A stretch of 64,000 nucleotides of DNA from Janthinobacterium sp. (GTDB lineage: Bacteria > Pseudomonadota > Gammaproteobacteria > Burkholderiales > Burkholderiaceae_D), in NCBI GenBank assembly GCA_003133225.1, contig PKWL01000014.1, forward strand, positions 1-64,000, given 5' to 3'. The stretch's first letter is position 1; each line of letters opens with the position of its first letter. The notes under the pieces are model-generated. The model ran no database searches, was not told the origin of the DNA, and was given only the letters and a program-made list of their open reading frames with translations. This document shows, piece by piece, positions 11,954 through 25,046 of the stretch. A program made the position numbers and the translations under genes.

Positions 11954-11969
11954 TGTTCCACGTGGAACA
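11954..11969. other. parS centromere site 1
   Basis: TGTTCCACGTGGAACA is a perfect 16-base palindrome that fits the ParB-binding consensus TGTTNCACGTGNAACA. It lies 95 bases upstream of mnmG and close to parAB, the usual place for chromosomal parS. Confidence 0.93.
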
Positions 11970-11997: not shown

Positions 11998-12013
11998 TGT
12001 TTCACGTGGAACT
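11998..12013. other. parS centromere site 2
   Basis: TGTTTCACGTGGAACT matches the parS consensus at all but the last base. It begins 44 bases after the start of site 1 and overlaps the last two bases of the stop codon of the neighbouring permease gene. Confidence 0.88.
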
Positions 12014-15722: not shown

Positions 15723-16607
15723 CTAATTCTCTTTGCCAAATAAACCGGCCGGCCGCAGCAGCAACACAATAACCATCACGACGAAGACGACGGTGGCCGA
15801 TCCTTCCGGATAAAATACACGGGTCAAGCCCTCGATGACACCCAGGCCGAGGCCGGTCAGGATCGAACCCATGATCGAGCCCATGCCGCCTATTACGACC
15901 ACCGCGAACACGACGATGATCAAGTTCGAGCCCATCAAGGGGGAGACCTGGATGATGGGCGCCGCCAACACGCCGGCAAACCCGGCCAGTGCCACGCCAA
16001 AGCCATAGGTGAGGCTCACCATCAATGGCACGTTGATGCCAAACGCTTCCACCAGTTTCGGGTTTTCCGTGCCGGCCCGAAGGTAAGATCCAAGCTTGGT
16101 TTTCTCGATCACGAACCAAGTAGCCAGACAGACAGCCAGCGAAGCGAGCACGACCCAGGCGCGATAATTCGGCAGGACCATGAAACCGAGGTCGGTGGAA
16201 CCGGCCAGCAGCGCAGGTACTTCAAACGGTTGGCCGGAGACGCCGTAAAAGGAGCGAAACACTCCTTCAAGCAACAGCGTAATGCCAAAAGTGAGCAACA
16301 GGCCATACAAATGATCAAGCTTGTATAACCAGCGCAGCATGGTTCTCTCGATAATGATGCCAAATCCAGCGACCAGCAGTGGCGCCACCATCAACATCAC
16401 CCAATAACTTAGGCCAAAGTAAGTCATTCCCATCCAGGCCAGGAAGGCGCCCGTCATATACAGTGCGCCATGGGCGAAATTAATGACGTTGAGCAGTCCA
16501 AAAATGACGGCCAGGCCAAGCGATAGCATGGCATAAAACGAGCCGTTGACGAGGCCGAGTAACAACTGGCTCAACATGGCTTGCAAAGGAACGCCGAAAA
16601 TTTGCAT
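15723..16607 (-). CDS. livH: Branched-chain amino acid ABC transporter, permease LivH
   Basis: 294-residue LivH-type permease. It opens with LLLGLVNGSFYAMLSLGLAV and holds NFAHGALYMTGAFLAW, both typical of the family. The cytoplasmic coupling loop is near ENPKLVEAFGINVPLMVSLTYG. It is 88 bases upstream of livM and 128 bases downstream of the binding-protein gene. Confidence 0.94.
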   Translation of the reverse strand: MQIFGVPLQAMLSQLLLGLVNGSFYAMLSLGLAVIFGLLNVINFAHGALYMTGAFLAWMGMTYFGLSYWVMLMVAPLLVAGFGIIIERTMLRWLYKLDHLYGLLLTFGITLLLEGVFRSFYGVSGQPFEVPALLAGSTDLGFMVLPNYRAWVVLASLAVCLATWFVIEKTKLGSYLRAGTENPKLVEAFGINVPLMVSLTYGFGVALAGFAGVLAAPIIQVSPLMGSNLIIVVFAVVVIGGMGSIMGSILTGLGLGVIEGLTRVFYPEGSATVVFVVMVIVLLLRPAGLFGKEN

Positions 16608-20103: not shown

Positions 20104-21744
20104 TTACCGCCACGCCAGTTGAATCATGATCGCGGCCTTTTCTGCGATCATCATGGTGGGCGAATTGGTGTTGCCGGACGTGATGGTAGGCATTACCGAC
20201 GCATCGACCACGCGCAATCTGGCCACACCAATCACGCGCAAGGTGCTGTCGACGACCGCCGTCGCATCGCCGCGCCGCCCCATCTTGCAAGTGCCTACCG
20301 GATGGAAGATCGTGGTTCCGATCAAGCTGGCGGCCACGGCTAATTCGTCCTCACTGCGGTAACCAACTCCCGGCTTGAATTCCTCTGGTTTATAGGGGCG
20401 CAGCGCCGGCGCCGCCACGATTTGGCGGGTTAAGGTAAGCGCGGCGGCGGCCGTTTTCCGGTCTTGTTCCGTGCTGAGATAATTGGGTGTAATTTTGGGC
20501 GCAGCATATGGATCGTTCGAGGCGAGCCGCACATGACCACGCGCACTCGGTCGCAAATTACAGACGCTGGCTGTGAATGCGGGAAAAGTGTGCAGCGGAT
20601 CGCCAAATTTATCCAGAGACAGGGGCTGCACATGATATTGCAGGTTGGGCGTGGCTTGAGCGGCGTCAGACTTGACGAAAGCGCCCAGCTGCGACGGCGC
20701 CATCGACATCGGCCCGCTTTGAAACATCGCATATTGGAGCCCAATTTTCACCTTGCCTAGGAAATTGCTTGCCATGGTATTCAAGGTCTTGGCGCCTTGC
20801 ACTTTGAAGACCATGCGCAGTTGCAGATGGTCTTGCAGGTTATCGCCGACGGCGCCCGCATCAACGAGCGGCGCAATCCCATGTTGGCGTAACAAGGCGG
20901 CCGAACCGACTCCCGACAATTGCAGCAGATGGGGCGAGCCAAGCGCTCCCGCCGTCAATAATGTTTCACGCCTAGCTGATACGGACCAGCGAGCAGCTCC
21001 GTCGGTAAAAATAACGCCGCGGCACAACGGACCCTGCTCGCCTTGCTCGATCATCAGTCGCTCGACGTGGCAGCCGGTCATAATGGTCAGGTTTGGCCGC
21101 GCCGCCGCTGGCCGTAAGAACGCTTTTGCCGTATTCCAGCGAATACCGCGCCTTTGGTTGACGTCGAAATATCCGCAGCCGGCATTGTCACCACGATTAA
21201 AATCGTCCGTCTTGCTGATCCCGACCTGCTCGGCGGCATCGCGGAAGGCATCCAAAATCCGCCATGATAAACGCTGTTTTTCGACGCGCCACTCGCCTCC
21301 GACACCATGTTCAGGCGTGCCACCGCCATAGTAGTCTTCACTTTTTTTAAATAAAGGCAACACCTGGTCCCAGCGCCACGATGCATCACCGGTCAGCTCA
21401 GCCCAATGATCGTAATCGCGGGACTGGCCACGCATGTAAATCATCCCATTAATCGAGGAACTACCACCGAGCACTTTGCCACGCGGGTAATTTAGGCTGC
21501 GCCCACCCAAGCCGGCATCCGGTTCAGTACGGTATAGCCAGTCTGTGCGCGGATTACCGATGCAATGCAAATACCCCACTGGAATATGTATCCACAAGTA
21601 ATTGTCCTTGCCCCCAGCCTCGATCAGTAAGACTGTCGCATCCTTATCACGCGTCAAACGGTTGGCCAGTACGCAACCTGCCGTACCGGCGCCCACGATG
21701 ATGTAGTCGTATTGGCCCGCCGATTCCAATGACTTCTCCCTCAC
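20104..21744 (-). CDS. GMC family oxidoreductase (choline/alcohol dehydrogenase-like)
   Basis: 546-residue flavoenzyme of the glucose-methanol-choline family. The FAD-binding motif YDYIIVGAGTAGCVLANRL is at residues 12-30. The GMC signature region RGKVLGGSSSINGMIYMRG follows. The catalytic His is in FHPVGTCKMG near residue 484. Such enzymes oxidise choline or medium- to long-chain alcohols to aldehydes; the sequence alone does not pick the substrate. No betaine-aldehyde dehydrogenase or BetI gene is next to it, which argues against a choline pathway operon. Confidence 0.92.
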   Translation of the reverse strand: MREKSLESAGQYDYIIVGAGTAGCVLANRLTRDKDATVLLIEAGGKDNYLWIHIPVGYLHCIGNPRTDWLYRTEPDAGLGGRSLNYPRGKVLGGSSSINGMIYMRGQSRDYDHWAELTGDASWRWDQVLPLFKKSEDYYGGGTPEHGVGGEWRVEKQRLSWRILDAFRDAAEQVGISKTDDFNRGDNAGCGYFDVNQRRGIRWNTAKAFLRPAAARPNLTIMTGCHVERLMIEQGEQGPLCRGVIFTDGAARWSVSARRETLLTAGALGSPHLLQLSGVGSAALLRQHGIAPLVDAGAVGDNLQDHLQLRMVFKVQGAKTLNTMASNFLGKVKIGLQYAMFQSGPMSMAPSQLGAFVKSDAAQATPNLQYHVQPLSLDKFGDPLHTFPAFTASVCNLRPSARGHVRLASNDPYAAPKITPNYLSTEQDRKTAAAALTLTRQIVAAPALRPYKPEEFKPGVGYRSEDELAVAASLIGTTIFHPVGTCKMGRRGDATAVVDSTLRVIGVARLRVVDASVMPTITSGNTNSPTMMIAEKAAIMIQLAWR

Positions 21745-22194
21745 GCTATGCTATTCGGATGCCAACTAGGCACTAATGTTCACTTATTTCGCGACCGAGA
21801 TCTTTAGCAGAACCAAATTTACCTTGCTAGATTAACACCAGCACCAAGCCATAGGAATATTAATTTGTCGCCCGGCTCAGCGGCAGCGGGATGAATGCGG
21901 GCGCTGATGAAGTTACCCTGGTGCCCTGTACCGGGAACACTAACGCCTGCCTAATTTGCCTATGACGAAAGTCATAAAACGCGGCGCCAACAGTTGCCGG
22001 GCGTGGAAAAATAAGGATGCCCATGGTCCATTCATTCATGTCGTGAAATCGCATACGCCGAGCCGCGCAAGGAGCGAGCCGTATGGGAGGCAAAGGCCAA
22101 AACTTCTTGGCTCTACTGACCCCACGAGACTGACCGTCTTCCCCCGTTTGGCGAGACTTTCTCGCCGAACGTCGTTAAATCCAGCGCTAACCCA

Positions 22195-22400
22195 TGTGGA
22201 TAAACCTATGGATATCCACAGGCGCGCTTTGTGATTAAATAAGACATTTTGAAACATCTTTTTTTTGTTCAGAAATAGCTCCTCACGAATACACGGCTTA
22301 CTCCTGGCTTATGCGGCTGGCAAGCGCTTGATTTCATTTTGGTTTACCTACTTATCCACAGAAAATGCCTACGTTTACTACTACTACTATTTATAAATAT
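22195..22400 (+). other. Origin-like module A (DnaA boxes, trio tract, AT-rich unwinding sequence)
   Basis: In order: TGTGGATAA at 22195 (perfect DnaA box, reverse), ATATCCACA at 22212 (near box), TGTGATTAA at 22230 (weak box), AATACACG at 22288, and TTATCCACA at 22352 (perfect box, forward). Thirteen bases further on comes TTTACTACTACTACTATTTA, a repeated TAC/TAT triplet tract like the DnaA-trio element, running into ATAAATAT. DnaA box, short spacer, trio tract and AT-rich DNA is the known layout of a bacterial origin unwinding region. Confidence 0.8.
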
Positions 22401-22503
22401 CGAACCAATTTTTAAAACCAAGACAAAAAAACCTAATTACCCGGTGCCAGATCTTCGGCAAAGCCAACGTCGCTTCGGCCCTGGAGACATGTCGGACCTT
22501 GGT

Positions 22504-22550
22504 CAACCTATCGGTTTGATGCACCAACCCCAACCTATCGGCTTGGTGCA
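22504..22550 (+). repeat. 27-base direct repeat, two copies
   Basis: CAACCTATCGG begins at 22504 and again at 22531; the two units differ at a few positions (GTTTGATGCA against GCTTGGTGCA). They lie between the two origin-like modules. No function is evident. Confidence 0.6.
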
Positions 22551-22942
22551 GTTGCATAATCCTGACAAACCTGGACAGGCGTGCCGAAGTGCGTCAATTT
22601 CTTAACGATTTTTGGGACGCCATCATTGGCTGTCCAGCGCCCGTCACCGTTCTGATGGGATGCCGCTTCCAGATTCAGCCGGTGACGTGGATTTACTATG
22701 CCCGCCCGCTCGCGTCTAGCATGCCCAGTTCCCATCCATCACAGACGGCCCACTCTAGCAATTTGTTCTTTGCAAGCGCTTTTTTTAAGGTGCTTGAACG
22801 GCCGGCCAGCGTCCACGCCATGGAAAATAAAGACTTTTCGCCGGCAACGAACCGTGCGGCTGCGCCGGCCTCGCGCCGTTCAAACCATCCAAGCTGGCGT
22901 CAGATCGAGTTGAGGCGGGACCTGCGACAGCGCGAAACTCGC

Positions 22943-23150
22943 TGTGAATAAGTCCAAGGATATCCACAGGATGATTTGTGAGTAAGAGCAAATTTATCCC
23001 AACAGCAGCTTTTTATAAAGAATTTCTCCTTAAAAAATACACGTAATATGCAGATCTTATATTTGATATAAGGTCATGATTGTACGTATGAATTCCTACT
23101 TATCCACAGAAATTTCTACGTTTACTATTACTACTATTTATATATATCTC
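22943..23150 (+). other. Origin-like module B, second copy
   Basis: The same elements recur as in module A: TGTGAATAA at 22943 (matches TTATNCACA, reverse), ATATCCACA at 22960, TGTGAGTAA at 22977, AATACACG at 23036 and TTATCCACA at 23100. Offsets from the first box are 17, 34, 93 and 157 bases, against 17, 35, 93 and 157 in module A. Twelve bases after the last box is TTTACTATTACTACTATTTA running into TATATATC. The two modules start 748 bases apart, and the DNA between the shared elements has diverged. Confidence 0.8.
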
Positions 23151-23174
23151 TTTTATAAAACAACTAAAAAGCAA

Positions 23175-23206
23175 AAGGACACTCATTTTTCACCTTTAGT
23201 GTCCTT
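23175..23206. repeat. Hairpin next to origin-like module B
   Basis: AAGGACACT and AGTGTCCTT make a perfect 9-bp stem around a 14-base loop, beginning 25 bases after the AT-rich end of module B. No matching hairpin follows module A. It could be a terminator or a protein site at the origin edge. Confidence 0.55.
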
Positions 23207-23399
23207 CACCAAGAATGACGCCTATGGATCGACGATGGAATATGGCAATGTCTACCAGCGCTCAGCCCACTTAGTGGGACCCGTCACGACGTGGGCTACA
23301 CTTCGGTCAGAGGCAAGCCTTCGCGGGACGCCGTCAACGGCGCGAAGCAAGCGTAGCGCTCGATTTTGTCCAGGAACAAGCGACTCGTCATCCGCCAAG

Positions 23400-23870
23400 G
23401 CGCCGGACCAAGTTGACCGGGCGACGGCCGCCGCGCTACTGGGAGCGGGAGCGAGTCTGGCCCTGGTGGCGGGAGTGACGATATCGTAGCGTCGTCGCTC
23501 CCCTCGGACATGCTTTGCGAGGCATTGAACAGGTGAATTCAGGCGATTTGGCGGGGAGGATCACGGCGACAGGGTCAACCTGGGCGCGGGAGAAATTGCC
23601 GATGGCGTTCTCGACTTGTCGGCGCGTACCGAAGCGCAAGCGTCGAGCCTGGAAGAAACCGCTTCGGCCATGGAAGAGGAGACCATCACCGTCAAGCACA
23701 GCGCCGACCATGCCCATTTAGCGAGCGACTTGGTATTCGACTACGTCAGCCATCGCCATCAAAGGAAGCGCAGCGGTCAACCACGTCGTTGGCACGATAG
23801 ATTAGATTAAGGAAAGCTCGCACAGCGATGGACATGGAAAGAGTTTTAAACCAAATCCATGTAAAGAATG
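23400..23870 (+). pseudogene. Decayed methyl-accepting chemotaxis protein gene
   Basis: Pieces of one chemoreceptor appear in order in different frames. A hydrophobic run ALLGAGASLALVAGVTIS ends near 23490, the HAMP-like RGIEQVNSGDLAGRITATG lies near 23518-23575, and the signalling-domain start LSARTEAQASSLEETASAME lies near 23616-23675. Further on, AIKGSAAVNHVVGTID is followed by an in-frame stop and IKESS. The tip and the C-terminal half of the signalling domain are missing. It is a broken gene, not a functional receptor. Confidence 0.8.
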
Positions 23871-24272
23871 AAAAACGCATCCGCCGGGCGAACGGCGCGC
23901 CAGGTGACTGGGGTGCCGCAGTTCTTGAGAACTATTTGTTTTCCAAACTCATCCGACCCACCCTACAATGTCGATGCTGGGGCAATTGGTGTATAGCAAT
24001 ATGGCAACATCCACCTTGGCATGCCTCGATGATGGGTGGGGTGGATCGGAATGGAGCGGATTGATATAAGGGCGCAAAATCTACGACCGAAGCCACAAGC
24101 GCTCGCCGCTTGAGCGGCTCTGTCAGCGTGTTCGACAAGCAAGACGATAGGGCGCGATGGATCAAATTAGAAACTTGGCCCCATTCGCAGCGCCTGCTAA
24201 CTTAACGAGAGGAGCCTACCGCGGTCGTCGGCTTTCCTCATACCCCGGCATGAGTTTCTTGGAGCAGCTTTA

Positions 24273-25046
24273 ATGAGTTTGAATCAGAAAATAGTTTTGG
24301 GCGTGATTAGTGCACTAGCCGAAGAGCAGGAGGGGCTAGTGGAAGCCATGCAAGGCACCCGCAAGCTCTCGCATGGCTTACGTGAGTATAGTAGCGGCAC
24401 TTTATGGGGAACCGACGTCGTGTGCGTCCTGTCTCGTCTAGGCAAGGTCGCGGCGGCCATGACAGCCGCCATTCTTGTGGAAAAATTCAAGGTCACCCAC
24501 ATTGTGTTTACGGGAGTGGCCGGAAGTGCCGATGTTGGTGTCAGCGTTGGCGACTTGATCGTAGCTGAAGCTCTGGTTCAACACGATATGGATGCGCGTC
24601 CTCTCTTTCCCCGTTTCGAAGTGCCCTTGACGGGGCTCGCGAGCTTCCAATCGGACCTAAAACTGAGCGATCTGCTGGCAAATTCGGCAAAAGCCTTCCT
24701 TGACAAGGATCTTGCCAGCGTGATTAGCAATCTCGAATCCAAAGAATTTGGCTTGGAAAACCCCCGCCTGCACCGAGGTCTGATCGCCAGTGGCGATCAA
24801 TTTATCAACAGACGGGCGCATTTGGTCCAACTCAAGGATGCACTGCCGGAACTATTAGCCGTAGAAATGGAAGGAGCTGCCGTCGCCCAAGTTTGCTTTG
24901 AGCTAGGCATCCCTTTTGCGGTCATGCGCACGATTTCGGACAATGCGAACGAAGACGCGGCCGTTGATTTTATGCGATTTGTAAAAACAGTCGCATCCCG
25001 TTATGCGTTTTGCGTCGTCAAACGCCTGTGTGAGAGCCTCACGTAA
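24273..25046 (+). CDS. 5'-methylthioadenosine/S-adenosylhomocysteine nucleosidase
   Basis: 257-residue protein of the MTA/SAH nucleosidase (PNP/UDP phosphorylase) fold. The opening LGVISALAEEQEGLVEAM, the VFTGVAGSADVGVSVGDLIV turn, AVEMEGAAVAQVC and the catalytic Asp in RTISDNANEDA match the family. It would cleave adenine from methylthioadenosine and S-adenosylhomocysteine, serving methionine salvage and, in some species, AI-2 synthesis. A GGAG ribosome site lies about nine bases before the ATG. Slightly longer than the E. coli enzyme. Confidence 0.92.
   Translation: MSLNQKIVLGVISALAEEQEGLVEAMQGTRKLSHGLREYSSGTLWGTDVVCVLSRLGKVAAAMTAAILVEKFKVTHIVFTGVAGSADVGVSVGDLIVAEALVQHDMDARPLFPRFEVPLTGLASFQSDLKLSDLLANSAKAFLDKDLASVISNLESKEFGLENPRLHRGLIASGDQFINRRAHLVQLKDALPELLAVEMEGAAVAQVCFELGIPFAVMRTISDNANEDAAVDFMRFVKTVASRYAFCVVKRLCESLT

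Follow-up and report, generated by a model that had tools for sequence, protein, structure and literature searches.

The window, by which we mean the whole stretch of DNA that was analysed, covers 64,000 nt of Janthinobacterium sp. (assembly GCA_003133225.1, contig PKWL01000014.1, positions 1-64,000, forward strand). Between a GMC oxidoreductase gene and a nucleosidase/phosphorylase-family gene it holds two modules, A and B, separated by a diverged spacer with short mechanical ORFs only (Table 1). A preliminary description had claimed two origin-like modules with equal internal spacing, and we re-found every offset in both copies, counted from 22195 (A) and 22943 (B): boxes at 0 and +17, a weak box at +35 or +34, the element AATACACG at +93 and a perfect box at +157. 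The 12-13 base spacer claimed to precede a trio-like tract was measured from box 3 to TTTACTA as 13 bases in A and 12 in B, and an AT-rich run follows in each module, the AT content of the 50 bases beginning 12 bp past box 3 being 76% in A and 86% in B. The trio tract of module A reads as 3'-AAT and then four 3'-GAT, five trios in all. The register between the modules is 748 bp, changing to 747 bp past box 3; as first described, what lies between the elements is diverged. AATACACG by itself was found once more in the window, at 15814, and the spacer between A and B holds a 20-base direct repeat (22504-22550, 90% identical, spacing 27). Module B may be the weaker of the two, since its box 1 deviates at one position and 8/9 consensus positions agree in its IHF-like site.

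Table 1. Features of the two modules and their neighbouring genes, in positions of the window
Feature	Position	Strand	Basis
GMC oxidoreductase gene, left neighbour	20104..21744	-	Pfam PF00732/PF05199
Module A, whole (M1 lineage)	22186..22424	+	full-module profile, E 7.6e-47 (window in training)
Module A by leave-out profile	22192-22417	+	E 4.5e-39
Module A DnaA box 1, TGTGGATAA, perfect	22195..22203	-	sequence match
Module A DnaA box 2, ATATCCACA (+17)	22212..22220	+	sequence match
Module A weak box, TGTGATTAA (+35)	22230..22238	-	family-wide conservation as tTGTG.A.AA
Module A IHF-like site, AATCAAGCGCTTG on - strand, 9/9 consensus positions	22321..22333	-	conserved block, enrichment over shuffles
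Module A DnaA box 3, TTATCCACA, perfect (+157)	22352..22360	+	sequence match
Module A DnaA-trio tract, TTA CTA CTA CTA CTA	22375..22389	+	14 bp past box 3
Module A AT-rich tract, presumed unwinding element	22390..22424	+	AT content; family-conserved TATATATA block
Diverged spacer between modules A and B	22425..22932	.	equivalent spacers 55% and 57% identical in 29 genus loci
Module B, whole (M2 lineage)	22933..23169	+	full-module profile, E 5.2e-42 (window in training)
Module B by leave-out profile	22935-23165	+	E 8.3e-27
Module B DnaA box 1, TGTGAATAA, one mismatch	22943..22951	-	sequence match
Module B DnaA box 2, ATATCCACA (+17)	22960..22968	+	sequence match
Module B weak box, TGTGAGTAA (+34)	22977..22985	-	sequence match
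Module B IHF-like site, 8/9 consensus positions	23069..23081	-	conserved block
Module B DnaA box 3, TTATCCACA, perfect (+157)	23100..23108	+	sequence match
Module B DnaA-trio tract, TTA CTA TTA CTA CTA, five trios	23122..23136	+	13 bp past box 3
Module B AT-rich tract, presumed unwinding element	23137..23169	+	AT content
Nucleosidase/phosphorylase-family gene, right neighbour	24273..25046	+	Pfam PF01048

Significance of the two modules

Thirteen sites within one mismatch of TTATCCACA occur in the window, six of which lie inside the modules (22195, 22212, 22352, 22943, 22960 and 23100). Allowing one mismatch per box, we found the geometry 0/+17/+157 twice in the window and not at all in 20 Markov-1 random sequences of 64 kb. 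Further, a profile built without Janthinobacterium, from 59 modules of other genera, recovered both A and B (Table 1) and no other match in the window at E<10, the best match in random sequence having E 1.9. These geometry counts and profile E values led us to reject a chance origin of the modules. Searching the same genome with module A gave 15 rows, namely A itself, two pieces of B and 12 short matches of 15-27 bases with E 2 or worse; as the matches elsewhere were short and weak, a genome-scattered repeat was likewise rejected. When a remnant third module was sought in the window with the full-module profile, the search returned A, B and one reverse match of E 4.8 within A.

GC skew and gene neighbourhood

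The cumulative skew of the window has its minimum at 22-24 kb. As the source assembly is in 158 contigs, skew over a whole chromosome was computed for a complete relative, Janthinobacterium sp. LM6 (G023, NZ_CP019510.1), from 40 stretches of 20 kb. Skew was negative in all 22 stretches of the arc that runs from 3.7 Mb across the sequence start up to 360 kb, and positive in all 18 between 360 kb and 3.42 Mb. A fine plot placed the cumulative minimum at about 354 kb, approximately 1 kb off the module cores at 354.9-355.9 kb. The preliminary description had asked whether the minimum lies elsewhere, for example beside dnaA. In LM6 this gene is located at 1.1 kb, 353 kb from the modules, and the skew between position 1 and 360 kb was negative (-0.003 to -0.043) in 11/11 sampled stretches, hence there is no turn at dnaA. 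An origin beside dnaA was rejected on this ground, and also because dnaA lies on a different contig in the assembly of the window. Two more genomes, G004 and G011, both have dnaA at position 388, with the modules at 363-364 kb in G004 and at 349-350 kb in G011.

Six further complete genomes of the family, each examined at six places, gave a mixed picture. The switch at the modules was clear in G219; agreement was seen at 5/6 places in G187 (exception +0.011 at -300 kb) and in G169 (exception -0.013 at +100 kb). G079 showed a partial switch, the skew of G074 rises and is near zero on the right (-0.005, -0.008, +0.003), and the pattern of G182 failed to fit the modules at the six sampled places. 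For split pairs in the window's own family the skew fits weakly at locus L251, and does not fit at L248 and L250.

The atp, parB, parA, rsmG and mnmG genes are found 10-22 kb to the left of the modules (parB, parA and mnmG by Pfam; atp and rsmG by reading), with parAB, rsmG and mnmG at most 15 kb away, and dnaA is not adjacent. Beside mnmG, 10 kb from the modules, two 16-mers (11954-11969 and 11998-12013) have two mismatches each to the parS consensus, with 0.02 such sites expected, and we take them to be parS-like. By reading, GMC-oxidoreductase-like and nucleosidase/phosphorylase-like genes also flank the modules in LM6 (L104), L250 and L248. No initiator-like protein was seen among the ORFs of at least 80 aa in 20104-25046 (by reading; two were searched in Pfam). 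In G072, G182 and G213 (L231, L229 and L235) no more than about 10 kb separates the modules from a contig end, a placement unlike that in Janthinobacterium, where the origin lies some 350 kb from dnaA.

Conservation within Janthinobacterium

Whether close relatives lack the modules, as the preliminary description also asked, was followed up in the genus. A 61-base search found the part with box 3 and the trios in 39 of 40 genomes, including 37/37 good ones, the genome without a match being 82% complete. With the full-module profile three modules (M1, M2 and M3) were detected in 29/29 other genus loci that were modelled; the window is exceptional in having two, the third missing. Short-query scans undercount modules, as illustrated by G028, with one match in such a scan against three modules by the full-module profile. 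Neighbouring modules are 400-500 bp apart in 52 of 58 cases (range 395-1098).

The mean identity over the 29 loci was 81%, 87% and 87% for the modules against 55% and 57% for the spacers, and invariant columns amounted to 85/210 (M1), 109/210 (M2) and 112/212 (M3) against 4/250 and 3/221 in the spacers. On these figures M1, M2 and M3 are each under constraint in the genus, and we rejected a relic there; the module duplication is an old one, not recent. Neither outcome that the preliminary description named as refuting, a skew minimum elsewhere or relatives lacking the modules, was observed, and its proposal of two near-complete unwinding regions under selection after a duplication is supported. 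In a module tree made by a quick method, in which 46 of 108 inner branches are open and which carries no orthology claim beyond the Janthinobacterium/g48 group, window module A fell within the M1 set (SH-aLRT 94, not starred; the set includes copies from g12 and g19) and module B grouped with M2 (SH-aLRT 87, not starred), hence it is the third module that the window lacks. One Rugamonas locus (L250) has copies in all three sets, and L023 is an exception whose first module groups with M2.

Following the third module, a partial fourth unit was observed in 28 of the 29 loci (L022-L050; e.g. at 2321 and 2338 in L024). It consists of TGTGGAAAA and then TTACCCACA 17 bp on, and is unreported by the full-module profile.

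Distribution and module structure in Oxalobacteraceae

A strict pattern occurred in 65/294 genomes and 12/44 genera of the family, which we call Oxalobacteraceae because of the names among 60 strict-pattern stretches, which include Janthinobacterium, Collimonas, Herbaspirillum, Glaciimonas, Undibacterium, Rugamonas, Herminiimonas, Oxalicibacterium and Oxalobacteraceae MAGs. A 70-base BLAST query gave matches in 137/195 genomes. From the pattern and BLAST matches we picked 40 loci outside Janthinobacterium, so that the following counts are not frequencies: three modules were present in seven loci, two in 28 and one in five. For the five single-module loci wider flanks were searched, and no further module was detected. 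Since these five carry one module, repetition is dispensable in Oxalobacteraceae.

The 35 loci with several modules have them as direct copies in 29 cases, facing each other in five (L238, L239, L240, L243 and L244) and pointing apart in one (L248), at spacings of 303 to 3576 bp. The inverted copies of L238 and L240 are near-identical, while direct copies mostly retain separate lineages; this suggests conversion between the inverted copies at these two loci. In L239 and L244 the inverted copies are sisters and more diverged. By reading, a large sensor/GGDEF/EAL-like gene lies between the modules of L250 (3821-7036, Rugamonas), and a LysR-like and an aldehyde-dehydrogenase-like gene between those of L248 (1273-3769, G169), hence the spacing tolerates insertions of kilobases.

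To describe the common module we aligned 111 modules from 50 loci, weighted by genus. The consensus starts with box 1 (TGTGGATAA), followed 17 bp on by the position of box 2, which is well conserved in only part of Oxalobacteraceae, and then by the weak box tTGTG.A.AA. The middle holds a block around aTTTTTaTcCA, then ATACA (inside AATACACG) and then TAAg...tTGATT; the end consists of box 3 (TTATCCACAGAAA), a short spacer, GTTAACtACTACTACTA and TATATATA. Few blocks of these 111 modules are as conserved as the trio and AT-rich tracts. The block TAAgNNNtTGATT, on the other strand AATCAANNNcTTA, fits the IHF consensus, WATCAANNNNTTR. Between box 2 and box 3 an IHF-like match at 9/9 positions was found in 28% of the 111 modules against 1% of base shuffles, and one of at least 8/9 in 89% against 17%. 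Three observations go beyond the preliminary description: that each module has an IHF-like site, that relatives have a third module, and that the modules coincide with the skew switch.

Counting the window, the 29 genus loci and the 40 loci of other genera, we had 70 loci with 171 modules. Measured by a box-picking script that favours the expected position, box 1 is exact in 151 of the 171 modules and box 3 in 161, box 2 has at least three mismatches in 48, and 169 modules have their boxes 1 and 3 spaced by 156-160 bp, the other two by 146 bp. The two short distances belong to genus g41 (second module of L252, first module of L253), and are about one helical turn below the norm of the family.

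A second family of Burkholderiales

Across the order a loose pattern was found in 8/250 genomes and a module-length query matched in 17/200; BLAST with a local module proved more helpful than the loose pattern. In a second Burkholderiales family (f31) BLAST with a local module gave matches in 35/60 genomes. Among 20 loci picked from these matches, with a profile threshold of E 0.01 or better, 15 had two profile matches and five had one. Thirteen of the 15 pairs face each other about 3 kb apart and two are direct at about 0.5 kb; in six of the 15 the weaker match reached only E 7.7e-6 to 2.4e-4. Two weak matches (E 2.9e-6 and 2.1e-5) were also observed about 17 kb apart in G495, an f31 genome of 1.2 Mb (L324 5574-5794 and L325 5852-6055).

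The 15 loci were recounted together with L320, whose pair by reading flanks a glutamate-cysteine-ligase-like and an antiporter-like gene, giving 16 pairs and 32 modules. At most one mismatch was seen in box 3 of 30 modules and in box 1 of 29. The two boxes are 167-170 bp apart in 18 modules and 180-181 bp apart in 12, one or two turns longer than in Oxalobacteraceae. Over both families the distances thus form a ladder of 146, 156-160, 167-170 and 180-181 bp, and as the steps are about 11 bp the distance shifts by whole helical turns between lineages, with the helical phase kept.

The strict trio pattern was present in 15 of the 32 f31 modules, and in both copies at 4/16 loci. By reading, GTTAAC and a trio-like tract occur in both copies at 12/16 loci, which include one damaged box 3 each in L361 and L375 and a divergent tract in L366, and a recognisable trio tract is absent from one copy in the remaining four pairs (L362, L369, L373 and L374). 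In L369, L373 and L374 one module still has its boxes 1 and 3 at a distance of 169 bp, with G+C-rich sequence replacing the trio tract. Copies without trios do occur in this family.

Skew was analysed for 13 convergent f31 pairs, namely L320 and 12 of the 13 facing pairs, L366 being left out. The left flank was negative in 13/13 and the right flank positive in 13/13, the pairs not being independent because they are related and share gene order. The mean skew was -0.038 on the left, -0.008 between the modules and +0.034 on the right. Taken as a sign of which module fires, the intermediate mean is suggestive at most: it would be expected if either module can start forks, and it could instead be a gene effect.

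Discussion

As judged from sequence, the two modules represent oriC, the chromosomal origin of replication, in a bacterium of the Janthinobacterium group. DnaA boxes cluster there beyond chance, an AT-rich candidate unwinding element with the conserved TATATATA block adjoins box 3, and the GC skew switches at the modules in LM6 and in the 13 f31 pairs, with mixed results in the six other complete genomes of the window's family.

How such modules would work can be outlined from known mechanisms, from which we infer protein binding, DNA bending and the opening of every module. DnaA would occupy both box 3 and the inverted pair of box 1 and box 2, which lie at a distance of 15 helical turns, and IHF would bend the DNA between them and so carry the complex at boxes 1 and 2 to box 3. 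From box 3 DnaA would spread along the DnaA-trios and open the adjoining AT-rich tract (the BUS mechanism), where helicase loading would follow. As two units, and three in most relatives, retain all of these parts, each unit is most likely openable. Hence we think it probable that this oriC is built of repeated complete units that serve as alternative or cooperating sites, with one start per cycle; for the window, two openable units in one origin is the simplest reading. More tentatively, and with slightly less than even confidence, we extend this to Oxalobacteraceae and part of f31, where two or three independently openable units, tandem or facing and with phase-locked box spacing, would be present and initiation would pick one or several of them.

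The alternative that survives best, although we regard it as rather unlikely, is a functionally bipartite origin in which one module opens and the other copies are DnaA-binding platforms or sites of titration or timing. The datA and DARS loci of E. coli, which act in DnaA titration and timing, would be comparable to such binding-only copies. Titration or reactivation loci of this kind are distant from the origin and have no unwinding element; the modules lie at the skew switch of LM6 and carry trios. A bipartite function agrees with the single-module genomes of Oxalobacteraceae, and the copies in L369, L373 and L374, with boxes at 169 bp and no trio tract, resemble a binding-only copy. In known split origins, such as those of B. 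subtilis and H. pylori, the DUE resides in one sub-region (PMC4285127), and of two autonomously replicating elements in P. aeruginosa only one is essential (PMC4403523). Three findings speak against it: a copy used purely for binding could do without trios and an AT-rich tract, and in the window's own family both are highly conserved over the 111 modules; box 3 is exact in 161 of 171 modules; and constraint is seen on each of M1, M2 and M3 in the genus.

That the duplication left spare copies without selection we consider very improbable. Copies can be lost, as seen from two modules in the window against three in 29/29 genus loci, and some f31 copies appear degraded; on the other hand, the contrast in identity between modules and spacers over the 29 loci speaks against such relics, and so does the persistence of the M1, M2 and M3 lineages across species, with exceptions such as L023. 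Just as improbable are DnaA-regulated promoters or an integrated plasmid origin away from the true origin: this would fit with a dnaA on another contig, and 353 kb away in LM6, but not with the skew switch at the modules in LM6 and across the f31 pairs, the neighbours shared with chromosomal genes, or the ORFs of at least 80 aa in 20104-25046, among which nothing initiator-like was seen by reading.

Our preferred reading, repeated and complete units in one origin, may be compared with known origin types. A single unit makes up oriC of E. coli, with an IHF site between the DUE-proximal box and the other boxes, a placement shared with the IHF-like site of the modules. The BUS score of E. coli oriC is relatively weak (PMC8287927). 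By its published definition a BUS has three or more 3'-NAN-5' trios no further than 16 bp from a DnaA box (PMC8287927), and the modules have five trios each, at 14 bp in A and 13 bp in B. They resemble the BUS of B. subtilis, H. pylori and others in the order of box, short spacer, trios (mostly 3'-GAT-5') and AT-rich tract (PMC8287927), but differ in that the whole unit, together with an upstream inverted box pair and an IHF-like site, is present two or three times per origin. Repeated BUS units are unmentioned in the main text of PMC8287927, where the terms "two BUS" and "bipartite" are absent.

In the bipartite oriC of B. subtilis and H. pylori DnaA boxes likewise form two clusters within about 2 kb; a spacer gene, usually dnaA, lies between them, and the DUE is in one sub-region (PMC4285127). 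In the window, by contrast, trios and an AT-rich tract are present in both modules, and neither dnaA nor another spacer gene lies between them. More than one origin-like region per chromosome has been predicted in silico for A. fermentans, R. pickettii 12D, O. anthropi and Dehalobacter, and the P. aeruginosa elements are discussed along with these (PMC4403523). The putative double origins of R. pickettii, O. anthropi and Dehalobacter are 150-882 kb apart, and those of A. fermentans are close, with a second dnaA (PMC4403523); unlike these cases, the units of Oxalobacteraceae are homologous, 0.3-3.6 kb apart and recur across genera. We view the modules as a variant form of the DnaA/BUS origin. 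In the open-access literature we found no description of repeated complete origin units in these families, nor of an Oxalobacteraceae origin.

For chromosome 1 of B. cenocepacia, PMC4948915 reports dispersed origin features, an unclear exact position and another cluster of boxes close to the skew minimum. A two-module origin could explain this pattern, which by the published description we regard as a lead only. Repeated units may also explain ambiguous origin prediction in such genomes, and the module profile can help to locate origins that lie far from dnaA.

The usual description of a bacterial origin has a single opening site (PMC4285127), and the loading of two helicases at an origin is called unclear (PMC10201434). 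A lineage with two or three complete candidate opening units, direct in most genera and facing in others, would be a natural experiment on two-helicase loading. If the units do open independently, a round of initiation might use several of them, e.g. one per replisome, and this would be the first case of natural bacterial chromosomes that have several functional unwinding sites at a single locus, passed down over the age of whole genera.
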